Of a stretch of 64,000 nucleotides of DNA, positions 26,145 to 51,224 are shown piece by piece. The stretch is taken from the NCBI RefSeq assembly GCF_017161445.1, contig NZ_CP071060.1:3348001-3412000 (forward strand), given 5' to 3'. The position numbers and the translations under genes are program-made. This stretch comes from Niveibacterium microcysteis. Lineage in GTDB: Bacteria > Pseudomonadota > Gammaproteobacteria > Burkholderiales > Rhodocyclaceae. Position 1 is the stretch's first letter. Each line of letters begins with the position of its first letter. The notes beneath the pieces were generated by a model. The model saw nothing but the letters and a program-made list of their open reading frames with translations. It did no database searches and was not told the origin of the DNA.

Positions 26145-26618
26145 TCAGGTGGCGTCGAGGGCGAACAAAATCCAATCCGATCGCCTCGCATCGCTATCTA
26201 CCCAACCCGCCAGCACCGACTCGACGCCGTCCAATGCCCAGTGGTCCGCCAACCGTGCGGCAAAGTCCCAGAAATCGTCGTCGGCCAGCATGCAGGTTGT
26301 TCGGATGATCTGTGGCCACTGCGCCGCCATCACCGACAAGCTGATCGCGGGCTGCGATTGCATGAAACCAAACGGCATCGTGGGTGCGCCATCAAGTACA
26401 TCGTTCAGCACGCCGAGCGTCTCGTTCACCGGCCCCAACGCACTCCCCAGGATCAAGCCGACCGGACCCGCGGGCACTTCAATCGACAACGCGCCGGCCA
26501 GCGCAAGTTCAGTCCAGCCCCCCAAGCGGCGCGGCACGGCCCCAAGCCGGGCCCGCAGACAGGCGCGAGCACCTGCCTCGTCGAAGGTATTGCGGCTTTG
26601 TTGGACGACGCGACTCAT
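26145..26618 (-). CDS. KS-like (chain-length-factor-like) protein, catalytic residues absent
   Basis: 157 residues from MSRVVQQSRNTFDE. Stretches such as LILGSALGPVNETLGVLNDVLDG and PMPFGFMQSQPAISLS resemble the N-terminal half of ketosynthases. There is no catalytic Cys-His-His set, and the protein is less than half a KS. Its start overlaps the stop of the true KS (26615) by ATGA. I infer a non-catalytic KS partner comparable to the chain-length factor encoded at 50517-51224. This is the last gene of the pigment locus; 164 bp without a recognisable gene follow. Confidence 0.6.
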   Translation of the reverse strand: MSRVVQQSRNTFDEAGARACLRARLGAVPRRLGGWTELALAGALSIEVPAGPVGLILGSALGPVNETLGVLNDVLDGAPTMPFGFMQSQPAISLSVMAAQWPQIIRTTCMLADDDFWDFAARLADHWALDGVESVLAGWVDSDARRSDWILFALDAT

Positions 26619-27667
26619 ACCCGGTGCTCCAGCACGCCAGCCCATACCTGACCGCCAAAACCCATCGCCAGCACGAGCGCCGGACGACCGTCCCAGCGCC
26701 GCGCCGTGGTAGATGGCGCGATGCCCAGAGCAGGGTCCGCGGCGTCAAAGCCCAACGTTGCCGGCATCCAGCCTTGGTCAAGGCAAGCCGTCAGCAACGC
26801 AATCTCTGCCGGGCCACTAGCGCCAAGGGTGTGGCCTATCAGGCCTTTGAACGACACACAGGGCGGCACCTCGTCAAACACGGCCCGCAAGCCGGCTGCC
26901 TCAGCGGATTCGGTCATCGGACTGCCCGCGCCATGCAGCTTGACGACACCAATATCAGCCGGGGCTCGGCCGGCGCGGCGCAGCGCCAGGCGAATCGCAG
27001 CTGCCACCGGTTCACCCGATGCATCGGCCGACGTTGGCCCGCTTCGGTCCAGCGCCGAGCCGCTCCCGCTCAGATGCCAGCCGGCGCCGTCGCGTGCATC
27101 GCAATCCAGTACGCCAATCGCCTCGCCGAGCATCAAGCCATCACGCTGTCGATCGAATGGCTTGCAGGGCGTCGACGAGAGTAGCTGCATGGCGGCGAAG
27201 CCCTGCCGCGTGAACGCATTGTCCAGTTCCAGTCCGATTACGCGCACCTGCCGGGCACGACCTGTAGCCAGCTCCACCTGCGCGGCATCGAGCGCGGCAA
27301 GGCCCGACACGCAAGCCACAGAAAAGCAACGCGGCGAAGCACTGATGCCCAGGCGATGGGCTATGCCCGCCGCGAAAGTCGGCGGCGACCCGGCCAGCAC
27401 ACCAACGCGCTCGGCGCGCTCGGCGCCCCCAATCTGCCAGGACGAGGAACCGATATTGAGCAAAGCGTCCGCCGGCGCCGGCAACGCCTGGGCAAGCAGA
27501 TCCAGGGCACCGTGAAGGCGATGCCCCCACTCACCTGCCAGCGGCATCGCTGCAAACGGGCGCCCTTCGCGCGACGCCAGCGCGCGTTCGCCCTCCAATG
27601 CGCAGTGCACCGCGTCGGCGAGACTCAAGCCTGCTGCCGAAACGAGCGCCCGGGCGGTGATCCTCAT
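26615..27667 (-). CDS. beta-ketoacyl-ACP synthase (DAR half of pigment locus)
   Basis: 350 residues, somewhat short for a FabF-type KS (about 400). The catalytic triad is visible: Cys in SVACVSGLAAL, His in VKLHGAGSPMTES, and His in KGLIGHTLGASGP. It condenses ACP-bound acyl chains. It overlaps the upstream ACP gene (ATGA) and the downstream KS-like gene (ATGA), forming an ACP-KS-KS-like module. The same KS sits beside ACP and ABC transporter genes in flexirubin clusters of Bacteroidetes, as I recall. A likely task is making a beta-keto acyl precursor for DarB. Confidence 0.85.
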   Translation of the reverse strand: MRITARALVSAAGLSLADAVHCALEGERALASREGRPFAAMPLAGEWGHRLHGALDLLAQALPAPADALLNIGSSSWQIGGAERAERVGVLAGSPPTFAAGIAHRLGISASPRCFSVACVSGLAALDAAQVELATGRARQVRVIGLELDNAFTRQGFAAMQLLSSTPCKPFDRQRDGLMLGEAIGVLDCDARDGAGWHLSGSGSALDRSGPTSADASGEPVAAAIRLALRRAGRAPADIGVVKLHGAGSPMTESAEAAGLRAVFDEVPPCVSFKGLIGHTLGASGPAEIALLTACLDQGWMPATLGFDAADPALGIAPSTTARRWDGRPALVLAMGFGGQVWAGVLEHRV

Positions 27668-27936
27668 GTCAGGCGCGGAGCCTTGTCCTGCAGGTAGTCG
27701 GCAAGCGATGCCACACTCGCGAGAATGCGCCGAGTCTCCTTGCTATCGGTCAGCCGAACCCCATAGCGCTTCTGCAGCGCCATCGAAAGCTGCAGCGCAT
27801 CGAGCGAATCGAGCGCCAGGCGCGCCTGCGGGCCGAAGATCGGTTCATCATCGCTCAAGGCTTCCGGCGGCAAGTCCTTCTCGCAGGTGTCGACGATCAG
27901 GCGCTTGAGCGCCACGGTCAGTTCATTCGTGCTCAT
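27664..27936 (-). CDS. acyl carrier protein (DAR half of pigment locus)
   Basis: 90 residues from MSTNELTVALKRL. The phosphopantetheine attachment serine is in LALDSLDALQLSM (DSL motif), and the C-terminal VASLADYLQD is ACP-like. It is the third ACP of the locus and lies far from the other two (49238-49758), directly before the KS at 26615. It probably carries intermediates of the resorcinol branch. It starts 8 bp after the ABC permease stop. Confidence 0.9.
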   Translation of the reverse strand: MSTNELTVALKRLIVDTCEKDLPPEALSDDEPIFGPQARLALDSLDALQLSMALQKRYGVRLTDSKETRRILASVASLADYLQDKAPRLT

Positions 27937-27944
27937 GGTTGTGT

Positions 27945-29153
27945 TCAGGCTGTCGCGCGCGAACGTTGCAGCGCCCACGCAGCGAGAATCAAACAGGCTG
28001 CACCGAAGCCCAGCAAGGCAAGCATCGGCAGTGCGAGATCGGCGAGCGGCGCATCGCGCAACAACACCGCATGAAAAGCATCCAGCGCCCAGGCCATCGG
28101 CGAGACTTGCGTGAGGGGCTGCATCGCGGCGGGCATGATGAAGCGTGGCACCATCACGCCGCCGATCGCGGCCATCAGGATGTTACCCACGCCGCCGATG
28201 ACCGTGGCCTGCTCAGAGGTACGGGCGATCGACGCGACGAGGAAGGCCCAACCGATCGCAGCCGCCGACACTGAGACCGACACCAGCGCCAGCGCCGCCA
28301 GCCCACCCGCTCCCGGCAACTGCAGGGCCTCGCCGCCAAGCGCAGGCACCAGGCTGGCCCCAACCGCGAACATCAGACACGCCTGCAGCAGATTGAGCAG
28401 CACGAAAGGTGGCAATTTGCCGGCGATCAGCAAGGCCGGTGACGCCCCCATCGCACGAAGGCGCAGCAGGGTGCCGAACTGCCGCTCGGCGATGAAGACC
28501 GGTGCGAGCGGAATCACGACGAAGAACAGGCCAAAGATCAGCCATGCCGGCACGCTCTGCTGCACCGCGCTCGGCTTCAGGCTGCGGCCGTCGGCGCGCT
28601 GCATCAAGGGCAGTGCCACGGAATCCATCGGCACCGGCAACGGCACCCCCATCAGCGCCTGCACACGGCGCGACATCTCGCTCGCCTGCACCTGGCCGAG
28701 CACGGCGGCCACCTGCTGACGCATCGCCTGCTGCGCCACCACAGCCACCGCCGGATCTACCAGAATCTGAACCTTCGCCGCTGCCGCACCGGGCTCGGGG
28801 CCCAGGATCGCGGTACCGACACCAGCTTGCAGCACAACCGCGAACGCCGCGTCGCCCCGCCCCACGGCGCGCCGCGCATCCGCCAGCGACACCTCGCGGG
28901 CCTCATCAAACCCGGACACCGAACGCCGCATGGCGGCCACCAAGGCGCGCGCAGCGGGGCTCTCGTCCTGCTGCACCAGCACGCTGCGCGGCTTGAGCGC
29001 TGCCGGATCAAATGCGTCGCGCAAGGCGAAGGACATGATCAGGATGAACACTGCCGGCATCACGAAGAGCGCCGCCAGCGCATGGGGATCGCGCAGCAGC
29101 GCAAGCGCCTCCTTGCGCCACAGGGCGAGCAGGCGGACTAACAAACGGCTCAT
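27945..29153 (-). CDS. ABC-2 type transporter permease
   Basis: 402 residues from MSRLLVRLLALWRKE. An N-terminal membrane helix (LAALFVMPAVFILIMSFAL) is followed by a large extracytoplasmic domain (about residues 50-195) and five or six C-terminal helices, the YhhJ/ABC-2 permease layout. It overlaps the ATPase gene by ATGA and must be its membrane partner. In this locus it probably exports pigment or its precursors across the inner membrane. Confidence 0.88.
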   Translation of the reverse strand: MSRLLVRLLALWRKEALALLRDPHALAALFVMPAVFILIMSFALRDAFDPAALKPRSVLVQQDESPAARALVAAMRRSVSGFDEAREVSLADARRAVGRGDAAFAVVLQAGVGTAILGPEPGAAAAKVQILVDPAVAVVAQQAMRQQVAAVLGQVQASEMSRRVQALMGVPLPVPMDSVALPLMQRADGRSLKPSAVQQSVPAWLIFGLFFVVIPLAPVFIAERQFGTLLRLRAMGASPALLIAGKLPPFVLLNLLQACLMFAVGASLVPALGGEALQLPGAGGLAALALVSVSVSAAAIGWAFLVASIARTSEQATVIGGVGNILMAAIGGVMVPRFIMPAAMQPLTQVSPMAWALDAFHAVLLRDAPLADLALPMLALLGFGAACLILAAWALQRSRATA

Positions 29154-30064
29154 GCGTCGTCCCTCAGCGCGCGCTGGGTCAGTTGGAGGAACACATCCTC
29201 CAGCGTGGCGCGGCCACACTGCACGCTGCGCAGCGGCACGTTGTGGCGACGCAGCGCGTCAAGCACGCCGCCGAGTTCCTCGGGGGCGCCGAGCGTCAGC
29301 GACCAGGTTTGCGGGCCGATCACGTTGAGGGCATAGCGCACTTGCCATTCCTGCGCCAGCGGCGCCGGCAGTGGGCCGCCAAGCGCAATGCGAGCGTGCG
29401 TGCCCGCCTTCGCGCATACGGAATCCAGTGTGCCTTCGGCCAAGACGCGCCCGTGGTCGAGAATCGCGACGCGATCCGCGACCGCTTCGATTTCTTCCAT
29501 GTAGTGGCTGGTGTAAATCACGCCCCGCCCCTCGTTGCGCAATGCGCGCACCGTGTCGAGCAGGAAAGCGCGCGATTGCGGGTCGACGCCGGCGGTCGGC
29601 TCGTCAAGCAGCAAGACAGCCGGATCGCCCAGCAGCCCGAGCGCGAGGTTCAAACGCCGCTTCATGCCGCCCGAGAGCGTCCGTGCAGGCCGGTCGACAA
29701 ACGCTGCAAGCTGGCCGTAGGCGATCGCACGTTCGACGCGTGCGGCGCATTCGGCGCCACGCAACCCGAGCACGCCAGCAAACACCGCGAGGTTTTCGCG
29801 CGCGCTGAGCATCGGGTAGAAAGCGAAATCCTGCGGCACCCAGGCGACGCGACCGGCAGAGTCCAATGCCGCGTCACGTCGCACGCACCCCGTGGTCGGC
29901 ATGATCACGCCCGCCAGCAGAGCGATCAGGGTCGATTTGCCCGCGCCGTTCGGCCCGAGCAGCCCGAGCACCTCGCCAGCGGATATGCGCAGCGACACCG
30001 AATCGAGCGCCACGCTGGCGGCCTTCGGATAGCGAAAGCTGAGCGCCTCGGCGGCGAGTATCAC
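29150..30064 (-). CDS. ABC transporter ATP-binding protein
   Basis: 304 residues starting at a GTG (VILAAEALSFRYPKA). Walker A is GPNGAGKST (about residues 36-44), the signature is LSGGMKRRLNLAL, Walker B is VLLLDEPTAGVDP, and the switch histidine is in VIYTSHYMEEIE. I prefer GTG 30064 because it overlaps the upstream stop (GTGA) and has GGAGCG upstream; the longer frame adds non-ABC sequence. The C-terminal 80 residues form a small accessory domain, as in ABC-2 exporters. Confidence 0.9.
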   Translation of the reverse strand: MILAAEALSFRYPKAASVALDSVSLRISAGEVLGLLGPNGAGKSTLIALLAGVIMPTTGCVRRDAALDSAGRVAWVPQDFAFYPMLSARENLAVFAGVLGLRGAECAARVERAIAYGQLAAFVDRPARTLSGGMKRRLNLALGLLGDPAVLLLDEPTAGVDPQSRAFLLDTVRALRNEGRGVIYTSHYMEEIEAVADRVAILDHGRVLAEGTLDSVCAKAGTHARIALGGPLPAPLAQEWQVRYALNVIGPQTWSLTLGAPEELGGVLDALRRHNVPLRSVQCGRATLEDVFLQLTQRALRDDA

Positions 30065-31053
30065 AGGCTGCGCTCCAGCGCCTGAAAGAACGCCTTCTCC
30101 CGATGGCCCATCGCGTCCAGCGCATCGGCCAGTCGGGCGGGGTTGAGCGGTTCGCGGTCGCGGCACATCCGCGCGGCGGTCAGCGCGAACTCACGCCACG
30201 CGTCGCCGATCTCGATCAGCTGTTGCGCATGTTCGGCAAAGACCGGGCGGCCTAACAGCTCGGCCGCCTCCTGCAGGAATGCGGCCTCGATGAACCGGAA
30301 ACCCGCGCCGCCGGTACCGATCTCTTCCTGCATGCGCACGATATGGCCAACGAAGAGCTTGCTCGCACGTGCATCCTCCATCGACAGTCGGCGCACGGCG
30401 CGCGCGAGTCGATGGATACCGCGTACGCCGATCAACGGCAGCGGGGTCTTGAGCATGATGCGACAGGTGCGACGCATCGCGGCGGGGAGTACCGCGTTCC
30501 AGTCTGGCACCTGCGCGGGGGTCTCCGCGTAATAGAGCAGGCCCTTTGGTGCCAGCACGCCACGCGCAAAGCGCGCGCGCTCCAGCGCGTCGGCCTCGCA
30601 GACCACCGGCTCCTCGAAGACCGGATCGCTGATCCGGTAACCATCCTGTTCGCGGCCGAACACGAGCAGGTTGTGCGCATTGAAATGGAAACGCAGATCC
30701 TGCGGAAAGTACGGCAGCCAGAATACCGAGGTCTGCAAGCCGACGACATGCCCGGCATCGAGCAACCGGTCGAGGCGTTCGCGCCCGGCTTTCGGCGAAC
30801 GGAATGTCTCAAAGCGGATCTTCCAGCCCAGCGGTTTGCGCAGGCCGCGCAGAATCGACTTGGGTGGCATGCGGTAGGCGATCAGCGGCAGGCCGTTGAG
30901 CTTGATGAAGGGCAGGTAGGCGAACGACAGCGCAGACGACAGCCCAAAAGCCATCGGCTCGGACATCTGGACGCCGCTATGACGCACCAACGCCGACACG
31001 ACGCCGCTTTCGCAGTGACTTGCTTGCCGGTGCTCGAACGCGGGGGTACTCAT
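30061..31053 (-). CDS. BtrH-like acyltransferase candidate (BtrH N-terminal and DUF4872-type domains)
   Basis: 330 residues from MSTPAFEHRQASHC, with GGAGG upstream of the ATG. The N-terminal HRQASHCESG places a candidate nucleophile at Cys14. A C39-peptidase-like fold continues with FNAHNLLVFG (His) and YRISDPVFEE (Asp), which would complete a Cys-His-Asp triad. The C-terminal half is helical (RIMLKTPLPLIGVRGIHRLAR). BtrH moves an acyl group from an ACP to an amine in butirosin synthesis. I infer that this homologue could move the aryl polyene acyl chain from ACP to the resorcinol hydroxyl, but there is no direct evidence. Confidence 0.78.
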   Translation of the reverse strand: MSTPAFEHRQASHCESGVVSALVRHSGVQMSEPMAFGLSSALSFAYLPFIKLNGLPLIAYRMPPKSILRGLRKPLGWKIRFETFRSPKAGRERLDRLLDAGHVVGLQTSVFWLPYFPQDLRFHFNAHNLLVFGREQDGYRISDPVFEEPVVCEADALERARFARGVLAPKGLLYYAETPAQVPDWNAVLPAAMRRTCRIMLKTPLPLIGVRGIHRLARAVRRLSMEDARASKLFVGHIVRMQEEIGTGGAGFRFIEAAFLQEAAELLGRPVFAEHAQQLIEIGDAWREFALTAARMCRDREPLNPARLADALDAMGHREKAFFQALERSL

Positions 31054-31451
31054 AGGTCCTCCACACGGCGAAGCGCGTCGACGCTGCAGCCGAGCACCGC
31101 AGCGTAGCGCTGCAGCACGTGTGGCGACAAACGCGCAAACACGGCCGGCCGGAAATGGCGACGGATTCGCCAGCGCCATACGCCGGATGTCTGTGCGAGC
31201 AGATCGAGGTCCATGCGCGCACGATACATGTGGTATTCCAGCGGTGACGCCAGGCCGGCAAGGGCGCGCGCGCGGGCATCCTCGGCAAGGCGCTGGAGTT
31301 CGTCCACCGCCTGCAGGTTGACGATTTCCTCCGCCTCCCAGCCGGTCGAGGCAACCACATGCAAGCGACCGTCAGCGCCCTGCGCATAAACGGCCTTGCG
31401 ATGGCCGGCGAGCACGCGCCCGCTGTCTTGCGGAACCTGTTCGTCGCGCAT
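31050..31451 (-). CDS. uncharacterised 133-residue protein between BtrH-like gene and darB
   Basis: From MRDEQVPQDSGRVLAG, a soluble protein with no signal peptide or membrane segment. It starts with a beta-rich stretch (KAVYAQGADGRLHVVASTGWEAEEIVNL) and continues as helices (EDARARALAGLASPLEYHMYRARMD). The C-terminus RLSPHVLQRYAAVLGCSVDALRRVEDL could be a helix-turn-helix-like end. It overlaps the darB stop by one base (TGATG) and its own stop overlaps the BtrH-like start. I do not recognise the family; co-translation argues for a role in the DAR branch. Confidence 0.7.
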   Translation of the reverse strand: MRDEQVPQDSGRVLAGHRKAVYAQGADGRLHVVASTGWEAEEIVNLQAVDELQRLAEDARARALAGLASPLEYHMYRARMDLDLLAQTSGVWRWRIRRHFRPAVFARLSPHVLQRYAAVLGCSVDALRRVEDL

Positions 31452-32605
31452 CACACCACCGTCAGATGGAAATAGCCGCTGGAGAAGCGTCCACTCTCCG
31501 GCACCGCGCACAGGATACGGTGACCAGGCTCCACCCGCCCGCTCTTGAGCAGGCCATCGAGCATGATGTAGATCGAAGCGGCACCGGTGTTGCCGCATTC
31601 CGAAAGGTTGGTGTACCAGCGCGACTGCGGAATCTCGAAGCCCACGTCACGCAGCCCTTGCGCGATGCCGTCGCGGAAGAACTCGGACGACATGTGGGGC
31701 AAGAACCAGTCGATGTCTGCCGCACGCAGGCAACGACGTTCAATCACGCGGGGAAACGGTCGCCGCAGCGTGTGTTCGATGATGTTGTCGTTGAGCAGGC
31801 GGACGTCCTGCTTCACCGCCATCACCGAATCCCGGTCGCGCGTAGCGGGATCGTAGGCGAGCCAGCCGTGGAAGTTGCCCGCCTCGTCCTTGTCGCCACC
31901 GGCGTACATGCAAACCGGCAATTCGTGGGCTGCAGACGACAACTCCATCCAGTCGATTCGCAGGTTAAGCCCGCCCGCTCGTGGCGAACGCTCCACCAAC
32001 ATCGCCCCGGCACCATCAGACAGCATCCAGCGCAGGAAGTCCTTCTCGAAGGCGATCTCTGGCCGCGCTTCCAGTTCAGCGACCCGCGCATCGCGCTCTG
32101 GCGCGAAATTGCGGCCGCGCATCATCATCGATGCGACTTCGCTACCAGTCGAAACGGCATGCTCGGCTTGGCCGGAGATCACCGCCATCCAGGCATATTT
32201 CAAGGCGGAAGTGCCCGCCAGGCAGATGCCAGCGGTCGCCACGACTTCGCAGGCCGGGATACCCAATTCGCCGTGCACCATCACCGCGTGATTGGGCATC
32301 AGCTGGTCGGGCAGCGAGGTGCCACATGCCAGGCAGTCGATCGTCGCCGGATCGAAGTCGGCCGACGCCAGTGCGCGCACCGCAGCCGCCGTGAGCTGCG
32401 CATTGCTCTGGCGCGGCTCGCCGGTCGCCGGATCGAGCACATAGTGGCGCGAGCGGATGCCGTTGCTGCGCAGCACGACACGGCGCGCGCGCGAACGATC
32501 CGGGCCGACACGGCCGAGCACATCTTCCATGTGCTCGTTGTCAATGGGCGCATTGGGCAGCACGCTGGCAATGCGGGTGATGTACGCGTAAGACGGTTCA
32601 GACAT
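31451..32605 (-). CDS. darB: KS III-type ketosynthase DarB-like (dialkylresorcinol formation)
   Basis: 384 residues from MSEPSYAYITRIASVLP. It has the FabH/thiolase fold: catalytic Cys128 in TAGICLAGTSALKYA, His in DWFLPHMSSEFFRD, and Asn in SECGNTGAASIYIMLDG. DarB homologues join two beta-keto acyl units and cyclise them to a cyclohexanedione, the precursor of dialkylresorcinols. The neighbour DarA supports this over a plain FabH role, as does the unusual substrate-loop region (MMMRGRNFAPERDA). Its start overlaps the darA stop by 8 nt. Confidence 0.85.
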   Translation of the reverse strand: MSEPSYAYITRIASVLPNAPIDNEHMEDVLGRVGPDRSRARRVVLRSNGIRSRHYVLDPATGEPRQSNAQLTAAAVRALASADFDPATIDCLACGTSLPDQLMPNHAVMVHGELGIPACEVVATAGICLAGTSALKYAWMAVISGQAEHAVSTGSEVASMMMRGRNFAPERDARVAELEARPEIAFEKDFLRWMLSDGAGAMLVERSPRAGGLNLRIDWMELSSAAHELPVCMYAGGDKDEAGNFHGWLAYDPATRDRDSVMAVKQDVRLLNDNIIEHTLRRPFPRVIERRCLRAADIDWFLPHMSSEFFRDGIAQGLRDVGFEIPQSRWYTNLSECGNTGAASIYIMLDGLLKSGRVEPGHRILCAVPESGRFSSGYFHLTVV

Positions 32606-33602
32606 GAGACTGGATACGCTCAGTGCCGCTGCCGGACGGCGCCTCGAATTCAGCACGGATGCGTTCGAAGCGTTTGCGCAGCAGCGGCGCGAGCAAAGAT
32701 TGCAGTGCCAGGCTCAGCGGCACGATCGTGACGATGGCCAACACCAGATAGGTTACGAACAAGAACAGCACCGGGCGCCGGCGACGCTGCCCGGCCTTGC
32801 CCGCTGCGCGAACGATGCGCGACCACACCGAGAAAGCCCGGGCGCCAGCGCGTTCGGACAGCGCGAGGCGTGGCTCGACCTTGACTGCGCCCAGACCCGT
32901 CAGCAAAGGCGAAGCGCCCTGCTCGCGATCCTCGCTTAGCGCCACACAGAGGGCTTTGCCAAATCGCTCAGTCGCTTTGATCTCAGCATCGGACACCCCC
33001 GCGGCCGGCATGCCCCACAAAGGATCACGGCGCCCTGTAAGCAGCCAGCGTGGCGTAGTAATGAAGGTGGCGAGTGTCGGACCCTGATCGACCAGTACCA
33101 CGTGATCAATGACGCGTGCGCCTATCGCCTCAAGTCGCGTGCGCAGCTTCTGCCATGCCGCCATCCACATGTTGCGGCAAGCGGCAACGGCCACCACGGG
33201 CTTCCCGGCGAGGAGTCGTTGCGCTTGGGGGCTCTCCAGAAAGGCAGTGACCGGCAGCGATGGAGACAGAAACCAGACCTGATAACCCAGCACGATCAGG
33301 TCGTAGTCGTCGGCCTGCGCCGGAATAGTGCGAAGCGGCGGCGCATCCTGTTGCACCGACTCCGGGAATGCGTCGAGAAATTCCCAGAAGCCCCACGGGA
33401 AAGGGTATCGATCGAACCCGTCGAGCCGCCAGCGATCAACTTCGACCGCGCTACTGCAATGAAGCGGGGCAACGATGCGGTCGAGGATCCGGTCGAGCTG
33501 GCCGCTTTGCGACCCACCTACGACGAGGACACGCTTCGTGCCCGAACCCGGCGCGCGCACGGGACGTAGAGGTTGATGCGCATGCGCGCCCGCGCTGATC
33601 AC
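32598..33602 (-). CDS. darA: DarA-like protein (dialkylresorcinol synthesis, flavodoxin-like)
   Basis: 334 residues from GTG 33602. RVLVVGGSQSGQLDRILDRIV resembles the flavodoxin-type phosphate loop of DarA proteins, followed by DDYDLIVLGYQVWFLSPSLPV and KPVVAVAACRNMW. A single C-terminal membrane helix (VLFLFVTYLVLAIVTIVPL) would anchor it to the inner membrane. DarA is thought to aromatise the DarB cyclohexanedione to a resorcinol; a flavin-dependent oxidation would fit the fold. The GTG overlaps the stop of the preceding gene (GTGA). A second in-frame GTG some 40 nt downstream is also possible. Confidence 0.82.
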   Translation of the reverse strand: MISAGAHAHQPLRPVRAPGSGTKRVLVVGGSQSGQLDRILDRIVAPLHCSSAVEVDRWRLDGFDRYPFPWGFWEFLDAFPESVQQDAPPLRTIPAQADDYDLIVLGYQVWFLSPSLPVTAFLESPQAQRLLAGKPVVAVAACRNMWMAAWQKLRTRLEAIGARVIDHVVLVDQGPTLATFITTPRWLLTGRRDPLWGMPAAGVSDAEIKATERFGKALCVALSEDREQGASPLLTGLGAVKVEPRLALSERAGARAFSVWSRIVRAAGKAGQRRRRPVLFLFVTYLVLAIVTIVPLSLALQSLLAPLLRKRFERIRAEFEAPSGSGTERIQSHV

Positions 33603-34072: not shown

Positions 34073-34097
34073 ATGTGAAGTTCCGGGAGTTTCTGAA

Positions 34098-35180: not shown

Positions 35181-35183
35181 TAT

Positions 35184-35823: not shown

Positions 35824-35840
35824 TCGTCGCAGTTCCGCGG

Positions 35841-36269: not shown

Positions 36270-36293
36270 GAAAGCTCCAGGACAATACAGAAA

Positions 36294-43770: not shown

Positions 43771-45304
43771 ACAGCCCCCAGCGCTGGCTGCGCAGCGCCC
43801 CGAGCACGCGATGCAAGTCAGCGTCGAGCGCGCGATCTTCGGCTACGAAAGGAATCAACTGATCAAGGTCGGCAACGAACTCGCCGAGTTCTTCCGTCAG
43901 CTCGACGGCCTGCTGCGCGCGCCGCAGCGCGACGCCCTGGCGCACCGCGATCAGATGCCCGGCCGCAACTTGCTCCACCAGTTCCAGCACACGCAACGCA
44001 TCGCGCGCAGCGATCGTGCCCATGCTGACCTTGTCCTGGTTATGGCACTCGGTCGAGCGCGAGAACACCGAGGCCGGCATCGTCAGCTTCAGCGCTTCGG
44101 CAGTCCAGGCCGACAGCGAAATCTGCAGCGCCTTGAGGCCGTGGTTGATCGGCGCGCGCTCGCCGCTGGCGCCGGACAGGTTGGACGGTAGCCCATGGTT
44201 GAAGCGGGTATCGACCAGCAACGCCATCTGGCGGTCCATCAGGTCGGCGAGGTTCGCGACGAGGTTCTTCAGGCTATCCATGGCAAATGCGACATGGCCG
44301 CCGTAGAAGTGGCCGCCGTGCAGCACCTGTTCACCATCCGGATCGATGATCGGGTTGTCGTTTGCGCTGTTGAGTTCGTTTTCCAGTGTCGTGCGCAGGA
44401 ATGGCAGCGCATCTTCCAGCACCCCGATCACATGCGGCGCACAGCGGATCGAGTAGCGATCCTGCAGGCGCTTCTCGTTGCGCGGCGGGCGATCGGAATG
44501 CAGATCGGCGCGCAAGCGTGCTGCCACCCCCTGCTGGCCGGCGTGCGGCTTCACCGAGAACAGCGTCTCGTCGAAATGGTGGGCGTTTCCGTCGAGTGCA
44601 AGGCAGGCCAGCCCGGTCATGCGCGTAGCCAGCCGCGCAAGGTATTCGGCGCGCTCAATCGCGAGGCAAGCCAGGCCTGTCATCACCGCGGTGCCGTTCA
44701 TGATCGCCAGCCCCTCTTTCGGGCGCAGGCGCAGCGGCGTGATGCCGCGTTCGGCAAAGACATCGGCTGTGTTGCGGATCGAACCTTCGACCCACACCTG
44801 GCGCTCGCCACACAGCACCGCAGCAACATACGAGAGCGGCGTCAGATCACCGCTCGCGCCGACTGAGCCTTCGGCGGGAATCAACGGCAGGATGTCCTGC
44901 GCCAGCAGGGTTTCGATCTGCCGAAGCAGGCCCCAACTCACGCCCGAAAAGCCCTGAGCCAACGAGGTCAGGCGCGCCACCAGCACTGCACGTGTTTCTT
45001 CCGGCGTGAGCCAGCGCCCCAGCCCGCAGCCGTGGTAGGTGAAAAGATGGTGCGGCAACTCCGCGACCAGTGCTGGCGGGATCGTGACGGTGCAGGAATC
45101 GCCGTAGCCGGTCGTCACGCCGTAGATCACGCCGTCTTCCGCCAGCAGGCGGTCAAGGAAGGCAGCGCCGCGTTCGATGCGATCACGGAAGGCTGGAGCG
45201 GGATCGAGCGCCACGGCAGCGCGCCGCTGACTGGCGGCGACCACGTCGACCGTATGGATGCGGGTGCCACCGACGCGGATGGCAGAATCAGGCTTGCGAG
45301 TCAT
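43763..45304 (-). CDS. aromatic amino acid ammonia lyase (tyrosine/histidine ammonia-lyase family)
   Basis: 513 residues. The MIO cofactor triad Ala-Ser-Gly is at residues 150-152 in GSVGASGDLTPLSYVAA, and the catalytic Tyr61 is in YGVTTGYGD. The substrate-selectivity pair, by my alignment, is Tyr90-His91 (FTYHGCGLG); histidine lyases have Ser-His, tyrosine lyases His-Leu and phenylalanine lyases Phe-Leu there, so it matches none exactly. In flexirubin loci this enzyme makes 4-coumarate from tyrosine as the polyene starter, which I think is its job here. Confidence 0.88.
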   Translation of the reverse strand: MTRKPDSAIRVGGTRIHTVDVVAASQRRAAVALDPAPAFRDRIERGAAFLDRLLAEDGVIYGVTTGYGDSCTVTIPPALVAELPHHLFTYHGCGLGRWLTPEETRAVLVARLTSLAQGFSGVSWGLLRQIETLLAQDILPLIPAEGSVGASGDLTPLSYVAAVLCGERQVWVEGSIRNTADVFAERGITPLRLRPKEGLAIMNGTAVMTGLACLAIERAEYLARLATRMTGLACLALDGNAHHFDETLFSVKPHAGQQGVAARLRADLHSDRPPRNEKRLQDRYSIRCAPHVIGVLEDALPFLRTTLENELNSANDNPIIDPDGEQVLHGGHFYGGHVAFAMDSLKNLVANLADLMDRQMALLVDTRFNHGLPSNLSGASGERAPINHGLKALQISLSAWTAEALKLTMPASVFSRSTECHNQDKVSMGTIAARDALRVLELVEQVAAGHLIAVRQGVALRRAQQAVELTEELGEFVADLDQLIPFVAEDRALDADLHRVLGALRSQRWGLYA

Positions 45305-46280
45305 GTGTCACGCGCACGGGGCGCGCCCAGAAATCGAAAAAGTTGAACCACTGCAACGGCGTGCGTCGTGTTTCCGCCTCAAGGCGCGCGGCGAACTCCT
45401 GCACCAGCGGCTGCAAGGCCGCTTCGCGGTTGCGCCGCGGCAGCACGATGCGATCGCGGAAGCGCTCGAAACGCACGCGAAAACCCTTGCCTTCAGCGGT
45501 CGGCCACATCAGGAACACCGGTACGCCCAGCACCGCTGCCAGCACCCAGGGGCCGATCGGAAATGGCGCGGCCTTGCCGAGAAACGGGGCTTCGAGCACC
45601 CCCGCATCCTGCGTGACCGGGACACGATCGCCAGTCATCACGATGAAGTCGCCGTCGGCAACGCGCTCCGCGAGGAACATGGCCATCGCCGGATCCAGTT
45701 CGGTCACCTGAATCAGGTTGAGCTGGCTGTCCGGATTGAGTTCGGCCATCAGCCGGTTGAAGCGCGCCGCGTGCCGCGTGTGCACCAGCACATGGATCTT
45801 GCCGGCGTCATGGTAGCTCGACGCCAGCGCCCGGCTGGCCTCGAAGTTGCCGAGATGAGCGGTGACAATGAGGCCACCGCGTCGCGCGCGAAACGCCTCG
45901 GCACACAATTCGGCCCCCTCGACGATGCAGCGCGCCGGATCGAGTCCGCCATTCCAGACCATCAGCTTGTCGAGAATGCACTCGGCGAAGGCCACGAAGT
46001 GGCGCAGCGATGCCCAGCGCCCGGGCTCGACGCCACTCGCCCGCAAGCGCTCGATGTAGGCCAGCGACGCTTCACGTGCGCTGCGCGCGCTCAGCCAATA
46101 CACAAAAACCACCGGGTACAGCGCCAACTGGAACGGCAGGCGCCCCAGCGCGCGATGCAGGCGATAGAGCAGCCGCATGCCGAAGATGAAGCCCACCTCG
46201 TCCATCTGCGCCCAATGCCGTGCGCCGCGCGCAGGCGGCTGCCCTGCCCCGGGCGCGGGGCTCGCCTGCGGACGATTCAT
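45288..46280 (-). CDS. LpxL/HtrB-like lysophospholipid/lipid A-type acyltransferase
   Basis: 330 residues from MNRPQASPAPGAGQPP. The family HxxxxE-type motif is seen as TAHLGNFEASRALA, with VMTGDRVPVTQDAG and FPIGPWVLAAVLGVPVFLMW downstream, as in LpxL-type acyltransferases. One membrane segment lies near the N-terminus (LALYPVVFVYWLSA). In aryl polyene loci such an enzyme may acylate the carrier lipid or glycan to which the pigment is attached. It overlaps the glycosyltransferase by 4 nt. Confidence 0.87.
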   Translation of the reverse strand: MNRPQASPAPGAGQPPARGARHWAQMDEVGFIFGMRLLYRLHRALGRLPFQLALYPVVFVYWLSARSAREASLAYIERLRASGVEPGRWASLRHFVAFAECILDKLMVWNGGLDPARCIVEGAELCAEAFRARRGGLIVTAHLGNFEASRALASSYHDAGKIHVLVHTRHAARFNRLMAELNPDSQLNLIQVTELDPAMAMFLAERVADGDFIVMTGDRVPVTQDAGVLEAPFLGKAAPFPIGPWVLAAVLGVPVFLMWPTAEGKGFRVRFERFRDRIVLPRRNREAALQPLVQEFAARLEAETRRTPLQWFNFFDFWARPVRVTHDSQA

Positions 46281-47017
46281 GCTGCACTCCGGAAGTGCCG
46301 CAGCAGCAGGCGCGGCGCCCTCGGCAACATGCCGAAGAACAGGCGCGTGTGCATCCACGAAATCGCCAAGTTGTCCGCCAGCGGGCGGAAGTGCGACACA
46401 CCACCTTCCGGATAGCGCACATGGGTTGGCACGTTTCGGATCGGCAGGCCGGCCCAGTCCAGCCTAACCAGAACCTCAACATCGAAGTCCATGCGGCGTC
46501 CGATGCGGGTGCGCTGCAACAAGGGCACCACCGCATCGAGCGGGTAGACGCGGAATCCGCACATCGAATCGGTGATGCGGAACGAGAGCGTGTTGATCCA
46601 GACCCATACATGCGTGGCGTAGCGCCCGTAGAGACGCCCTTTCGGCACACTGGCGTCATAGACCGGGCAACCGATGATCGCGTGGTCGGGCGCAGATTCG
46701 GCTTCGGCGAGAAAACGCGGCACGTCAGCCGTGTCATGCTGGCCGTCGGCATCGATCTGCAGGGCGTGCGTGTAGCCTGCCGCATGGGCAGCGCAAAGGC
46801 CGTCGGACACCGCCGCGCCCTTACCGCCGTTCTGTTGCCGGCGCAGCACCGTCACATCAGTGTCAGCCGCCGCCAGAGCGTCTAGCACCGTTGCGCACTC
46901 GGCGCGGCTGCCGTCATCCACCATCAAGACGGGCAGGCGCTGCGCGCGCAGGGCCGCCACCACGCCGCCCACTGCATGCTCGTGGTTGTAGACCGGGATC
47001 ACGGCGCAGCACTTCAC
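46277..47017 (-). CDS. family 2 glycosyltransferase (ApeJ-like)
   Basis: 246 residues from GTG 47017, chosen because it overlaps the AMP-ligase stop (GTGA) and starts just before the GT-A fold. CAVIPVYNHEHAVGGVV and LMVDDGSRAE bind nucleotide, QIDADGQHD is the DxD metal site, and MCGFRVYPLDAV matches DPM1/DGDG-like family 2 enzymes. It would add a sugar to a lipid carrier or to the pigment head. The sugar is not predictable. Confidence 0.9.
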   Translation of the reverse strand: MKCCAVIPVYNHEHAVGGVVAALRAQRLPVLMVDDGSRAECATVLDALAAADTDVTVLRRQQNGGKGAAVSDGLCAAHAAGYTHALQIDADGQHDTADVPRFLAEAESAPDHAIIGCPVYDASVPKGRLYGRYATHVWVWINTLSFRITDSMCGFRVYPLDAVVPLLQRTRIGRRMDFDVEVLVRLDWAGLPIRNVPTHVRYPEGGVSHFRPLADNLAISWMHTRLFFGMLPRAPRLLLRHFRSAA

Positions 47018-48693
47018 CGCGCAGCTCCAAACATCAGGCGGCCACTCGCACAAGGGCGTTCGCCATCGGTGATCCGAAAGGCCACGGCCGCCTTCGCAGG
47101 CAAATGCTCAAGTGACAGCACCAAGCGGCAACCGGGGCGCACGACGTGCTGGAACTTCAGGGCATCAACACCGCGGAATGGCGCCGCAATGCCGAACATG
47201 TCCTGTGCCCAGCGCATCGCCCAATCGAGCTGTACGACACCCGGCAGGATCGGCGTATCGGGAAAATGCCCTTCAAAGGCAGCGAGTGAGGCCGCCACCT
47301 CCAACGCGACGACCGCTTGGGTATCGCTCACCGACAGCACCTGCGCTTCCGGCTGCTCGGCCGAGGCGCCGAACAAGGCCACGAGCAGCGCCTGCGGCGT
47401 CTTGCCCAGCGCGTTGAGCGGTATCGTTTCGACATGCCGCCAACGCCGCGGCAGCGCCAGCGCTTCGACATCGCCAGCAATCGCAGTGCGCAAATACCCG
47501 TGCAGCCCCGCACGACCAAGCCGAGCAAGCGCGGCATGCCCGGTCTCGCTCAACACGAGGACCGCCCCCAAACGCCCCTCCGGCAGCACGCAGCAGCGCG
47601 CCTCGGCAATTTCAGGTTGGCCGGTGAGTGCGCGCTCAACCGCGTCGAGCGACACCCTTTTTTCCTCGACCTTCACGATACGGTCGGCGCGACCCAGCAA
47701 ACGGAAGCCCGCCCCGATTGGCTGCGCACGATCGGCGGTGTCGTACCACGCAGCAGGGTCGGGCATGAAAGGAGAGCGCAGACGCAGTCCAGTCTCCGCG
47801 AATTCAAGGTCAACACAGCCGTGCTGCTGCCACACCGCATCAAGCGCCGCATCGGACTGGCTCCGCCACGCGATGCCACCCGTCTCGGAGCTGCCATAGA
47901 CCTCGATCACGGGCACACCCAGGGTGCCACGCACCGCGAGCGAAGCGTCCCGCGCCAGCGGCCCGCCCGACGAAAAGACGATGCGCGGCGCTGGTGGCAG
48001 CGCATGCAGCGCCAGCGCTTCGGGCCAGCGTCGCAGATAAGCGGGGCTCGACACCAGCACCGCATCTTGGCCCCCCAATGCGGCGGCGACGGCCTCGGGA
48101 TACAGCAGTTGCTGGGCGAGCAGCACGCGACCACTGACCACGGGCCACAGCAAACGAAACAGCAGCCCGTAAAGGTGCTGGTGGGAGACTGTGCCCACAA
48201 TCGTTGCATCGGCTGCCGCCTCTCCCCAGGTCGACTCAATGACGGCGAGTTCGGCAGCCAGTTGGCGCAGTCGTTTTTCGATTGCCACCGGCGCGCCGCT
48301 GGTGCCCGACGTGAAGACGACCAAGGCTGGCAGTTCGCCATCAAGCGCCGCGAGGGCGAAATCAGCCGGCGCGGGCTCTGCGATCGCGCTCGCTGGGCCG
48401 GCCAGCCAGCCGTCGACCTCTCCTTGCAAGCGCTGAAGTGTCGCCGGCAGAAGGTCACCCGGCAGTACGACCGTTTTGCCGGCCGCCCAGGCACCGAATA
48501 GGCGCACGGCGGCTTCATCGACGTCGCCGCAGTAAAGCCCCCATCGCGCGCCCGGCATCTCGCCCAGGCGCGCGGCCCACGCGCGTACACGCGCGAGGAA
48601 CATCCCCCAGGAAACGAGGCTGCCGTGGCTGAGCGCGAACGGCGTCTCAGGCGCGCGCGCCTGTAACAGCGCGCTCGAAAGGCGATCAAGCAC
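47014..48693 (-). CDS. AMP-dependent aryl-acid ligase fused to a FabA/FabZ-like dehydratase domain
   Basis: 559 residues from GTG 48693, with GGAGG 7 nt upstream. Residues about 10-440 form an adenylate-forming ligase: VVFTSGTSGAP (about 125), EVYGSSETGG, DRIVKVEEKRVSLDAVE, and LNALGKTPQ with the catalytic Lys. Residues about 450-559 are a hotdog dehydratase: FEGHFPDTPILPGVVQLDWA, with His and an Asp in the FabA position. In other APE operons these are two genes (ApeH, ApeI as I recall). The ligase activates the aryl starter and loads it on an ACP. Confidence 0.9.
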   Translation of the reverse strand: MLDRLSSALLQARAPETPFALSHGSLVSWGMFLARVRAWAARLGEMPGARWGLYCGDVDEAAVRLFGAWAAGKTVVLPGDLLPATLQRLQGEVDGWLAGPASAIAEPAPADFALAALDGELPALVVFTSGTSGAPVAIEKRLRQLAAELAVIESTWGEAAADATIVGTVSHQHLYGLLFRLLWPVVSGRVLLAQQLLYPEAVAAALGGQDAVLVSSPAYLRRWPEALALHALPPAPRIVFSSGGPLARDASLAVRGTLGVPVIEVYGSSETGGIAWRSQSDAALDAVWQQHGCVDLEFAETGLRLRSPFMPDPAAWYDTADRAQPIGAGFRLLGRADRIVKVEEKRVSLDAVERALTGQPEIAEARCCVLPEGRLGAVLVLSETGHAALARLGRAGLHGYLRTAIAGDVEALALPRRWRHVETIPLNALGKTPQALLVALFGASAEQPEAQVLSVSDTQAVVALEVAASLAAFEGHFPDTPILPGVVQLDWAMRWAQDMFGIAAPFRGVDALKFQHVVRPGCRLVLSLEHLPAKAAVAFRITDGERPCASGRLMFGAAR

Positions 48694-49231
48694 CGGCAAG
48701 CCTCCGCTTGACGCGCTGACGGACCACCCATTCCGCGGCAAACAAAAGCCCCATCGCGACGTAAGACAGGCAACCGTTGTACAAAGCCCAGATCGCGTCC
48801 GAAGCCCACAGCGCTGTCGCGAGCGAGATGCTGCCGTTTATCACGAAGAAGCCGCACCAAACCTGCGTCACGCGCCGGACATAGGGCACTGCGGCGTCCG
48901 GAAGATCCGGTTCTTGCAGGCGCGCGAAACGCTCGATGACGGTTGGCGGATGCAGCAGGCTCCAGCCGAACACCGCAAGCAAGCCAAGGTTGATCGCCAA
49001 GGGGTAGAAGCGCAGCGGCAGTGCGTCATTGGAAAGCAACGCATAGCCGGCGATCAGCGTTGCCGCACCGACCCACGTCCACGCCATACGATCGCGCGGA
49101 CCGACGACGAGGCGTGTCAGGGCCGCGACCAGCAGCGCAGCCGCCAGCCAGCGAGGCGACACCCAGCGCTGGCCAAACGCAAGTGCAAGCGGAAACAGGA
49201 TCGCAAAGAGCGCGAGCACGCCGTTGGGCAT
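48686..49231 (-). CDS. COG4648-family integral membrane protein (ApeG-like)
   Basis: 181 residues with five or six hydrophobic segments (VLALFAILFPLALAFGQRW, LAAALLVAALTRLVV, WVGAATLIAGYALL, LAINLGLLAVFGWSLL, VWCGFFVINGSISLATALW, GCLSYVAMGLLFAAEWVV). The HPPTVIERFARLQEP loop is typical of the family. It occurs between ACP and AMP-ligase genes in APE operons; function unknown, possibly organising the complex at the membrane. Its stop overlaps the ligase GTG by 8 nt. Confidence 0.85.
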   Translation of the reverse strand: MPNGVLALFAILFPLALAFGQRWVSPRWLAAALLVAALTRLVVGPRDRMAWTWVGAATLIAGYALLSNDALPLRFYPLAINLGLLAVFGWSLLHPPTVIERFARLQEPDLPDAAVPYVRRVTQVWCGFFVINGSISLATALWASDAIWALYNGCLSYVAMGLLFAAEWVVRQRVKRRLAGA

Positions 49232-49237
49232 CGTGCG

Positions 49238-49489
49238 TCAGGCGGCTTCGGCCATCACACCGTAAAGCGCATCCACCACGTCCTGCACGGTACGGACCGT
49301 CTTGAAGACCTCGGGCTGCATACGCTTGCCGGTCAGCTCCTTGGCGCGGAGCATGAGATCAACCGCATCGATCGAGTCGATATCGAGATCCGTGTAGAGA
49401 TTCGATTCCGGTTTCACGTCGGCCGGATCGATCTCGAAAGTGTCGTGAAGCACGCCCACGATCCAGGCATAAATCTGCTCGCGGTTCAT
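49238..49489 (-). CDS. acyl carrier protein (ApeF-like)
   Basis: 83 residues. The phosphopantetheine serine is in LDIDSIDAVDLML, preceded by FEIDPADVKPESNLYTD. A second ACP gene lies directly upstream with ATGA overlap. In APE systems one ACP takes the aryl starter and the other the growing chain; which does which cannot be read from sequence. Confidence 0.93.
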   Translation of the reverse strand: MNREQIYAWIVGVLHDTFEIDPADVKPESNLYTDLDIDSIDAVDLMLRAKELTGKRMQPEVFKTVRTVQDVVDALYGVMAEAA

Positions 49490-49758
49490 ACAGCCTCCTG
49501 CGTACGCCGGCGCGCCTTGACCAACTCGGCGAGTGCGGCAACGCTGGCGAAGTGCGCGCGCGTCTCGTTCGAATCAGCTGACAGCGTGATTCCGTAATGT
49601 TTCTGCAGCGCGACGCCAAGCTCAAGCGCATCGATCGAATCGAGGCCCAGCCCATCGCCGAACAGCGGTGCATCGGTGTCGATATCGTCGACCGAGATGT
49701 CCTCGAGGTCGAGGCAGTCGATGATCATCTGTTTGATTTCTTTGTACAACTCATCCAT
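49486..49758 (-). CDS. acyl carrier protein (ApeE-like)
   Basis: 90 residues. The attachment serine is in GLGLDSIDALELGVAL, with DLEDISVDDIDTDAPLFGDG before it. HYGITLSADSNETRAHFASVAALAEL resembles the C-terminal helix region of the DAR-branch ACP at 27664, so those two may be related by duplication. It overlaps the acyltransferase upstream by 8 nt and the next ACP by 4 nt. Confidence 0.93.
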   Translation of the reverse strand: MDELYKEIKQMIIDCLDLEDISVDDIDTDAPLFGDGLGLDSIDALELGVALQKHYGITLSADSNETRAHFASVAALAELVKARRRTQEAV

Positions 49759-50524
49759 GGCGCAACAACTCCTGGGCGAAATGCCGTTCGAGATCCTGTG
49801 TCAGATGCCGGGCCGCGAGAGCAAGAGGCAAATCGGGACGCAGGTAGGGGGTGACGGGTATGTCTTCCCCCACGGAAAACACAAAATGCGGCCGCCGAAG
49901 CGGCACTCGATACCACTTCTCCCCCTTGGTCAGCATGATCGGGCTGCACTGGATATAGACCGGTGTCAGCGCAAGCGCACCCCGTACCGCAAGGTTTCCG
50001 GCGCCGCGCTGAAACGAGAGCGGGCACCCGGGCACCGTGCGCGTACCTTCCGGGAAGATGATCAGGTTGCTGCCGTTACGGACCGACGCGATGCAGGCAT
50101 CGACGACTTCCGGGCCGGAACCATTGCTTACATAGTCAGCAGCCTGGACCGGGCCGCGAGTGAACGGATTACGCCACAACGCCGCCTTCACCACGCAATC
50201 AGCATTGCGCACCAGCGACATTAAGAACACGACGTCGATCAAGGTCGGATGGTTCGCAACAACCAGGAGCCCGTCCCGCTGCAGCCGCTCGACGTTCCGA
50301 AGCTCATAGGTATAGATGCCCATCACGCGCATCTGCGCGACGAACACTCGGAATGCGAAGCGGATCACGTTGCGTGAAATACGGCGGCGCGCGTTCCGCT
50401 CCCAAACCGCGATGCGAATCAGCGGAAAGATCAATAGCCCAAGCACCAGTCCGCCGAGCCCGAAACTCGAGAAGCAGAACGCGGTCGCGAAGATCCGCCA
50501 AGCGCGATTAAACGGACTAGACAC
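49751..50524 (-). CDS. PlsC-like 1-acyl-glycerol-3-phosphate acyltransferase family protein (ApeD-like)
   Basis: 257 residues from GTG 50524, which overlaps the upstream gene by 8 nt. The HX4D catalytic motif is NHPTLIDVVF and the second block is IIFPEGTRTVPG. An N-terminal membrane helix (FATAFCFSSFGLGGLVLGLLIFPL) anchors it. In APE operons this acyltransferase is believed to transfer the polyene or a fatty acyl chain to the lipid or glycan anchor. The frame extends upstream of 50524, but that part is the chain-length-factor gene in another frame. Confidence 0.87.
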   Translation of the reverse strand: MSSPFNRAWRIFATAFCFSSFGLGGLVLGLLIFPLIRIAVWERNARRRISRNVIRFAFRVFVAQMRVMGIYTYELRNVERLQRDGLLVVANHPTLIDVVFLMSLVRNADCVVKAALWRNPFTRGPVQAADYVSNGSGPEVVDACIASVRNGSNLIIFPEGTRTVPGCPLSFQRGAGNLAVRGALALTPVYIQCSPIMLTKGEKWYRVPLRRPHFVFSVGEDIPVTPYLRPDLPLALAARHLTQDLERHFAQELLRHG

Positions 50525-51224
50525 GCCGCACCTGCCACCCGCGAGCGCAGTCGAATGAAACGGAGTCGCCGGCCAACCACCGCGTCCAAGCCAGCACCTC
50601 TGGTTCGGAATACGCGGGCGTTGGCACCGCCGCTTGCGACAGCGCCAGGCCGGTGCCGTCGCCAAGCCGGAAAATGCCCGCCCAAGCGGCAGGGAGCTCA
50701 GGCTCAGTCACATAACTTGAATAGCAGGCGGGCACCGGCTCATCACTCAGAATCGCCAGAACTTCAGCATGACCATCAGCCAGAAAGGCCATTACTTCGG
50801 CGAGCATCGCGAAGACCCCGCCCGTCTCAGCAGCGAGCGCCGTATACGGCGCCGAATCCTTGCGCACGATGCCGAGCAAGCCAGGCGCCGCGTTGTGCAC
50901 CGACGCAGCAAAGCCGGCCGGCGACAAGGTCTCACCTCGCGCAAGCGCCTCGAGCAACTCTGCGGAACGGCCGACCGATCCATGCCTCGACACGTACACG
51001 ACCGGCAAACCGGTTCGATCGCCCAGAACATCGAACGCGGCACGCAAGGTCATACGCGCCAGTCGATCAGCCCGGCGTCGCAGCATTGCCGGAATTTCCG
51101 GCAGCACGGGCTCACCGGCGGACTCAGGTGTGCGAAGACCGTCGGCCCACTCCTGCCACGCAGCGCGATCCGGCAAGCCGGGCGCCCACGCCGTCCAGGA
51201 CGACACGCTTAGCAAACCCGACAT
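50517..51224 (-). CDS. beta-ketoacyl synthase chain-length factor (ApeC-like)
   Basis: 235 residues from MSGLLSVSSWTAWAPGLPD, the typical opening of this Ketoacyl-synt_2 family. PVVYVSRHGSVGRSAELLEALARGE and AGFAASVHNAAPGLLGIVRK are KS-fold pieces, but there is no catalytic Cys-His-His set. The E. coli homologue pairs with the elongating KS (here 38682) to set chain length. It is the first gene of the pigment locus; everything down to 26145 lies in the same orientation behind it. Confidence 0.87.
   Translation of the reverse strand: MSGLLSVSSWTAWAPGLPDRAAWQEWADGLRTPESAGEPVLPEIPAMLRRRADRLARMTLRAAFDVLGDRTGLPVVYVSRHGSVGRSAELLEALARGETLSPAGFAASVHNAAPGLLGIVRKDSAPYTALAAETGGVFAMLAEVMAFLADGHAEVLAILSDEPVPACYSSYVTEPELPAAWAGIFRLGDGTGLALSQAAVPTPAYSEPEVLAWTRWLAGDSVSFDCARGWQVRRV

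Follow-up and report, generated by a model that had tools for sequence, protein, structure and literature searches.

Hybrids of polyene and dialkylresorcinol (DAR) biosynthesis genes in Proteobacteria have already been published, as the available texts of PMC3949708 and PMC9966250 describe. For the arcuflavin of Azoarcus sp. BH72, the available text of PMC3949708 describes arc genes split over two unlinked loci and dar genes in a cluster of their own; the set includes a XanB2 chorismatase, a 3-hydroxybenzoate start, a halogenase gene and separate genes for ligase and dehydratase. In the hybrid clusters of Pseudoalteromonas, aryl polyene (APE) and DAR genes stand side by side, and the resorcinol part coincides with a yellow-orange colour (PMC9966250, available text). 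Here we analysed a 64,000-nt stretch (the window) of the 4.85 Mb genome of Niveibacterium microcysteis (Rhodocyclaceae) that carries an APE-DAR operon. A sequence-only reading of this DNA had proposed an APE-DAR hybrid locus in a betaproteobacterium, and profile matches, including those to DarB and DarA, bore this out. The operon probably makes a flexirubin-type ester of a tyrosine-derived polyene and an alkylresorcinol, with the BtrH-type protein DarE catalysing the ester-forming step. BH72 was compared by its published gene table, Flavobacterium and Pseudoalteromonas by published description, and Chitinophagaceae and other relatives by sequence.

The locus is real: a complete APE set (34098-51224) is joined to a complete DAR set (26145-33602), as delimited by profile searches, and a chance arrangement of these genes is not credible. 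Thirty genes lie on the minus strand between 51224 and 26145, and one more, the 31st, comes after them at 25546-25980; the earlier count of 28 same-strand genes was right as to the strand and too low. With our choice of starts, genes overlap at 23 of the 30 junctions of this chain, by 4 bases at 16. The APE half holds a ketosynthase (KS) with a short chain-length factor (CLF), ApeP- and ApeI-type dehydratases, a ketoreductase (KR), two acyl carrier proteins (ACPs), an AMP-ligase, and MMPL, LolA and DUF3261 proteins; the MMPL protein, whose Pfam match is below cut-off, was assigned by homology and position. KS2 and CLF had the two chains of 6qsp as best matches and the dehydratase had 6qsr_B, which we take to be the Xenorhabdus ApeO/ApeC and ApeP structures. 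The DAR half holds a DarB-type ketosynthase and an adjacent DarA, and the homology of both was found by profile search (Table 1). The narrower DarB model NF053539 gave 464.6 bits, under its cut-off of 550, and the narrower flexirubin model for DarD, NF053545, gave 121.5 bits, under its cut-off of 170. No Pfam family was found for DarD and no NCBIfam match for DarA; a DarA homologue was present in 24 of 26 rows of DAR loci, the window among them. The gene content listed by the sequence-only reading (APE set, DarA, DarB, ACP, KS, ABC transporter and BtrH-like protein) matches ours as far as it goes, and omitted a FlxJ-like methyltransferase, three small exported paralogs, a thioesterase, a glycosyltransferase and two acyltransferases.

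DarE combines the domains BtrH_N (PF14399) and DUF4872 (PF16169) and scored 464.9 bits (cut-off 300) with NF053550. NCBIfam calls this family 'BtrH-related acyltransferase DarH', and the idea of DarE as an acyltransferase is thus already contained in the family name. BH72's own darG and darH are different genes from NCBIfam's DarG and DarH families. Residues C14, H127 and D143 of DarE are invariant, and structure comparison of the predicted model revealed over its whole fold the architecture of the carrier-protein acyltransferases CtaG, AziU3 and CcbD. The BtrH_N domain, the Cys-His-Asp pattern and the whole fold together place DarE among BtrH-related acyltransferases; CtaG, AziU3, CcbD and, via the Pfam domain, BtrH share this fold and pattern. 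In contrast, DarE showed no likeness to them by sequence: a first search of the PDB returned 0 matches and a profile search 5, the best at E 0.23 and unrelated. The proposed acceptor also differs, being a phenol for DarE and an amine for the others. Collectively, the modelled fold and predicted active site make DarE our leading candidate for the enzyme that forms the ester. No paper assigning ester formation to DarE or DUF4872 was found in the literature searched, which consisted mostly of non-subscription papers.

To place DarE in a wider context, we compared 34 DarB genomes with 36 hand-picked DarB-negative entries. DUF4872 was found once per genome in 30 of the former, 0.85-2.0 kb from DarB, and in none of the latter (Fisher p 8e-16). 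The DarB genomes comprise 5 from a protein search (E <= 1e-80), 20 from a class sample and 9 reached via methyltransferase loci, the last being no random sample; G006, whose DarB is in two pieces, was counted. DarB exceeded the cut-off in 21 of the 369 genomes of the class sample, including the window's own genome, G000. The negatives are mostly larger genomes; Niveibacterium sp. 24ML appears twice among them (G001 and G062), and in G165, G390, G107 and G312, full-length proteins more distantly related to DarB scored under the cut-off. Polyene and DAR genes go together: Ketoacyl-synt_2 was matched in 34 of 34 DarB genomes, weakly (E 1e-9 to 1e-15) in Bacteroidota and G081, compared to 13 of the 36 others; within the class sample, all 21 genomes with DarB had a match (p 5e-7).

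The starter gene of the APE half encodes an ammonia lyase with the 4-methylideneimidazole-5-one (MIO) motif ASGDLTPL and an NQD of the tyrosine or phenylalanine ammonia lyase (TAL/PAL) type; the host's own HutH (L211) has QED at that site. Both lyase motifs, MIO and NQD, are like those of FlxA-type lyases. NQD was present in 56 of 57 aligned lyase rows, 34 of them Bacteroidota (best frame of at least 400 aa per locus, with the window and 24ML each entered twice). Because the starter gene is a lyase with this NQD, we predict a TAL and a tyrosine-derived, flexirubin-like head. The NQD site is presumably motif 2 of FlxA of C. pinensis. According to the available text of PMC3992019, FlxA is a shown TAL whose motif 1 is histidine ammonia lyase (HAL)-like and whose motif 2 is TAL/PAL-like. 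The lyase scored below every NCBIfam cut-off, with TAL BagA/FevW best (402.8 bits), so that its TAL activity is a prediction. The best NCBIfam model for the AMP-ligase was 4-coumarate-CoA ligase (85.3 bits, far under the cut-off of 334.7), and for the methyltransferase, by far, the FlxJ family NF053543 (445.9 bits, cut-off 560). The flexirubin loci of C. pinensis and F. johnsoniae, as far as the published account describes them, and the Chitinophagaceae loci compared here have an ammonia lyase as start gene, a FlxJ-type methyltransferase, which the window's enzyme resembles at a score below the family cut-off, DarA, DarB, DarD and DarE. In contrast, the lyases are just 30-34% identical and the gene order is different; compared to Chitinophagaceae G083 and G085, DarB is 46% and DarE 40-44% identical.

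In the pathway that we propose, the ammonia lyase would convert tyrosine to 4-coumarate, and the AMP-ligase would load it onto an ACP. KS2/CLF, KS1, KR and the ApeI/ApeP-type dehydratases would build an ACP-held aryl polyene, as in the APE family, and the FlxJ-like methyltransferase would methylate the ring. As in the DAR family, DarB and DarA would form a 2,5-dialkylresorcinol, with DarC and DarJ as probable partners; DarE, perhaps with DarD, would then transfer the polyene from the ACP to a resorcinol hydroxyl. The MMPL, LolA and DUF3261 proteins and the ABC pair would deliver the pigment to the outer membrane, and its role there may be protection against oxidation. The product best predicted from the genes is an ester of a 2,5-dialkylresorcinol with a (methyl-)4-hydroxyphenyl polyene carboxylic acid, a yellow membrane pigment; the sequence does not reveal how long the chains are, where the methyl group sits or which hydroxyl is esterified. 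In the alkali colour test, BH72 arcuflavin is negative (PMC3949708) and C. pinensis flexirubin positive (PMC3992019), according to the available texts.

Several points weigh against this pathway. The pigment itself is a prediction from the genes. The HutH model scored nearly as high as the best TAL model (392.2 bits), the lyase substrate being inferred, and the methyltransferase could be an O-methylase. To our knowledge, BtrH-type enzymes make amides, not phenol esters. DUF4872 is absent from four genomes (G309, G286, G192 and G081) that do have DarB and polyene-type genes; in these, either the DAR stays free or the ester can be formed by a different enzyme. Around darAB of G309, G286 and G192, the homology comparison gave no further DAR gene, and the ten darAB neighbours checked in G309 and G286 were of other kinds or had no assigned family. 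The same four genomes favour an alternative for the transfer step that otherwise overlaps with our explanation, namely that a PlsC- or LpxL-like acyltransferase or a FlxW-type ligase-like enzyme makes the ester and DarE is a peptidase-like accessory. FlxW has been proposed as the ester enzyme of C. pinensis (PMC3992019), and the arcuflavin paper terms DarE a BtrH-like peptidase (PMC3949708; available text of each). However, PlsC, LpxL and the ligase also occur in DAR-free APE operons, whereas DarE was found solely beside DarB and has the full fold of carrier-protein acyltransferases; we regard this alternative as unlikely.

A further alternative is that the operon yields two products and no ester, with the aryl polyene linked to a lipid and the DAR left free. 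The APE half keeps its own family 2 glycosyltransferase and two acyltransferases, which could attach the polyene elsewhere, and it occurs without DAR in congeners. G286, G309 and G192, with darAB and no other DAR genes, are consistent with free DARs, and DARs also act as free signalling molecules (PMC9606717, available text). Against this, the DAR genes are nested in the operon with DarE, DarD, the ABC pair and an ACP, and producers of flexirubin and arcuflavin with such genes make esters, as the available texts of PMC3949708 and PMC3992019 describe. Two separate products are thus improbable, and we retain the flexirubin-type ester as the predicted product.

The DAR block (~8 kb) lies inside the APE operon, and the same operon is present without DAR in two congeners, 24ML and G002. 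Within the genus, the operon's methyltransferase was found in 4 of 7 genomes and DarB in 2 of 7 (G000 and G006). The G006 operon is spread over three contigs, one of which carries the methyltransferase and rpt1 together with darA and the beginning of darB. Apart from gaps, 24ML is collinear with the window at 13459-25599 and 34117-61751 and lacks 25600-34116. It was rejected as a clean 'empty site': a 40-base remnant of the gene at 25546-25980 lies next to its methyltransferase. 24ML has thus undergone a deletion at this site and is no proof of an original absence of DAR. In G002, an intact copy of this gene lies directly beside the methyltransferase and DAR is absent; its left flank had no match to that of the window in the stretch fetched. 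Gain of DAR is the simpler reading than loss, and is not proven. No compositional signs of recent transfer were seen (G+C 66.3% in DAR, 65.0% in APE, 65.5% in the left and 63.0% in the right flank), and the search for direct repeats at the DAR borders gave just short matches at chance level.

Trees were built for each half. Five polyene genes gave the order (((window, G006), 24ML), G002) with support of at least 100/99 at each fork, and a genus clade apart from the Burkholderiales and gammaproteobacterial operons; two long rows join in this tree and their placement is unsure. The DarB-only tree was poorly resolved, and a four-gene DAR tree was used instead. In the latter, the window and G006 were sister to XanB2-type G031 (98/96), within a seven-row group (100/99) that includes G018, G059, G064, which has no XanB2 match, and G174, which has an ApeP-like match. 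A group of the window, G006, the XanB2 rows G018, G031 and G059, and Caldimonas had low support (64/39). Grouping the DAR genes of the window and G006 with the APE-linked hybrids G434, G243, G376 and G340 was rejected (approximately unbiased test, p-AU 6e-14); that group was defined by gene arrangement, after the DarB tree and before the four-gene tree, and G376 covers less than half of the columns. The placements in the two trees therefore indicate that the two halves have different nearest kin.

The APE operons of 24ML, G002 and Burkholderiales (Roseateles, Paucibacter, Pelomonas, Rubrivivax, Ideonella) share the APE genes, lyase, methyltransferase and gene order of the window; in Burkholderiales, the methyltransferase lies between MMPL and DUF3261. 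None of these operons has DAR within 10 kb of the methyltransferase, and DarB over the cut-off was found neither in 24ML or G002 nor in eight Burkholderiales genomes (L003, L005-L009, L039, L076). The lyase-type loci of gammaproteobacterial G434, G243 and G376 resemble the window in having APE and DAR side by side; in contrast, their DAR modules are of another lineage and their gene order is unlike the window's. PF21168 (XanB2 type) was matched in 6 of 22 genomes searched (G018, G031, G059, G329, G445, G159); this profile search did not find it in G000 or in the lyase-type-operon genomes G434, G243, G376, G064, G063 and G068. DarB and DUF4872 are present in each of the six XanB2 genomes, and an ApeP-like match in none of them. 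Since XanB2 genomes and lyase-type genomes both carry the DAR module, one kind of DAR goes with two kinds of polyene. Two further genomes with DarB and DUF4872, G160 and G219, had CLF family matches and neither a XanB2 nor an ApeP-like match.

The likeness to arcuflavin suggested earlier held in part. As given in the available text of PMC3949708, the hybrid precedent is real, BH72 being another betaproteobacterium with polyene and DAR genes, and the DAR gene order is the same apart from BH72's darG and darH. The whole locus is unlike BH72: the APE layout differs, the window has one operon with an ammonia lyase instead of XanB2, a fused ligase-dehydratase and a FlxJ-like methyltransferase, and its APE half groups with the DAR-free operons of the same genus. 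Although the DAR order and the DAR sister G031 would suit an arcuflavin-like pigment with a methylated 3-hydroxybenzoate-derived head, the lyase, the missing XanB2 match and an APE half that belongs to lyase-type operons make it very improbable, and arcuflavin was rejected as a model for the whole locus. As part of the overall explanation with a flexirubin-type ester, we think it likely that the DAR genes form a portable module inside an APE operon of the tyrosine type. A broader idea, which is quite possible and which we hold tentatively, is that DAR plus DarE forms a portable capping cassette that could esterify any host aryl polyene, of 3-hydroxybenzoate or tyrosine type. Flexirubin-like pigments would then have been assembled repeatedly, in this case through insertion of a XanB2-lineage cassette into a tyrosine-type operon, and DarE would be the missing ester enzyme of flexirubins and arcuflavin. 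This gene combination and assembly history were not found described in the literature examined; the hybrid operon kind itself is known.

Table 1. Genes of the APE-DAR operon in the window, with the matches on which each assignment is based.
Feature	Coordinates	Strand	Basis
Small exported protein, operon end	25546..25980	-	no Pfam family above cut-off; adjoins methyltransferase in G002
DarK-like protein, 157 aa	26145..26618	-	position as BH72 darK; weak Ketoacyl-synt_2 match, E 0.019
DarJ ketosynthase	26615..27667	-	PF02801, PF00109
DarC acyl carrier protein	27664..27936	-	PF00550
DarI ABC transporter permease	27945..29153	-	PF12698
DarF ABC transporter ATPase	29150..30064	-	PF00005
DarE, BtrH-type thiol acyltransferase (proposed polyene-ACP:resorcinol O-acyltransferase)	30061..31053	-	PF14399 + PF16169; NF053550
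DarD, small protein beside DarE (NCBIfam: DarG family)	31050..31454	-	NF053536 166.7 bits, cut-off 70
DarB, cyclising ketosynthase of resorcinol formation	31451..32605	-	NF005293 577.5 bits, cut-off 450
DarA, flavin-fold aromatase of resorcinol formation	32598..33602	-	PF03358 FMN_red 27.3 bits, cut-off 24
rpt1, small exported protein, paralog of rpt2/rpt3	33599..34072	-	paralogy
FlxJ-like methyltransferase	34098..35177	-	PF00891; NF053543 445.9 bits, below cut-off 560
rpt2, small exported protein	35344..35823	-	paralogy
rpt3, small exported protein	35841..36269	-	paralogy
Ketosynthase KS1	36294..37517	-	NF006587 706.9 bits, cut-off 470
Ketoreductase	37514..38239	-	PF13561
ApeP-like dehydratase	38236..38685	-	PF22817; solved relative 6qsr_B
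Ketosynthase KS2, likely CLF partner	38682..39869	-	6qsp_A E 9e-111
DUF3261 protein	39866..40396	-	PF11659
MMPL/RND-like exporter	40393..42759	-	same position in APE loci; Sterol-sensing 19.8 bits, under cut-off 22.3
LolA-like carrier	42752..43357	-	PF19574, PF03548
4HBT thioesterase	43354..43770	-	PF13279
Aromatic amino acid ammonia lyase, predicted TAL	43763..45304	-	PF00221; motif comparison
LpxL-like acyltransferase	45288..46280	-	weak NF006487 39.8 bits, cut-off 281; no Pfam family
Glycosyltransferase family 2	46277..47017	-	PF00535
AMP-ligase fused to ApeI-like dehydratase	47014..48699	-	PF00501 + PF22818
Membrane protein, ArcU-like position	48686..49231	-	no Pfam family above cut-off; homologues in APE loci
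Acyl carrier protein 1	49238..49489	-	PF00550
Acyl carrier protein 2	49486..49758	-	PF00550
PlsC-like acyltransferase	49751..50530	-	PF01553
Chain-length factor (CLF)	50517..51224	-	PF13723 Ketoacyl-synt_2; 6qsp_B E 6e-22

Within 25400-36400, no promoter-like sites were found, and terminator-like sites were no more frequent than by chance. Directly upstream of the operon start lies a tRNA-Pro (CGG) gene at 51591-51667, where the DNA is conserved in 24ML and G002; no sign of its use as an integration site was seen. The tandem paralogs rpt1-rpt3 are 31-40% identical and have no Pfam family above cut-off. The model of an rpt protein (pLDDT, the predicted local distance difference test, 84) is helix-strands-helix, with weak matches to KA1-like domains and no PDB match under E 0.001. 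Single rpt relatives lie near APE genes in the Burkholderiales loci L003 and L005-L009 and in L020. Relatives of the gene at 25546-25980, 46-54% identical, occur in Burkholderiales APE loci, and G002 has two further copies (L200 18549-19399). In Caldimonas mangrovi (L194, L206, L004), DAR genes in the window's order and an APE operon of the lyase type lie on separate contigs, and the FlxJ-like methyltransferase lies at yet another site: an unlinked counterpart of the window's operon. Two Planctomycetota metagenome-assembled genomes (MAGs), L014 (G072) and L064 (G081), each combine polyene-type genes with a FlxJ-like methyltransferase; in G072, DarB and DarE are on another contig (L195), and in G081, darA and darB occur without DarE. 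FlxJ-like methyltransferases were also seen in Silvanigrellales, Polyangiaceae, Oligoflexales, Myxococcota and deltaproteobacterial MAGs (L025, L029, L011, L050, L056, L079), adjoined by ammonia lyases in L025 and L029.

Flexirubins are a chemotaxonomic marker of Bacteroidota. The Niveibacterium locus supplies DarE as a further candidate for the ester enzyme, with a predicted active site, beside FlxW. Its relatives carry the same polyene operon with or without the DAR block, so that the enzyme of ester formation and the function of the resorcinol cap can both be tested directly.

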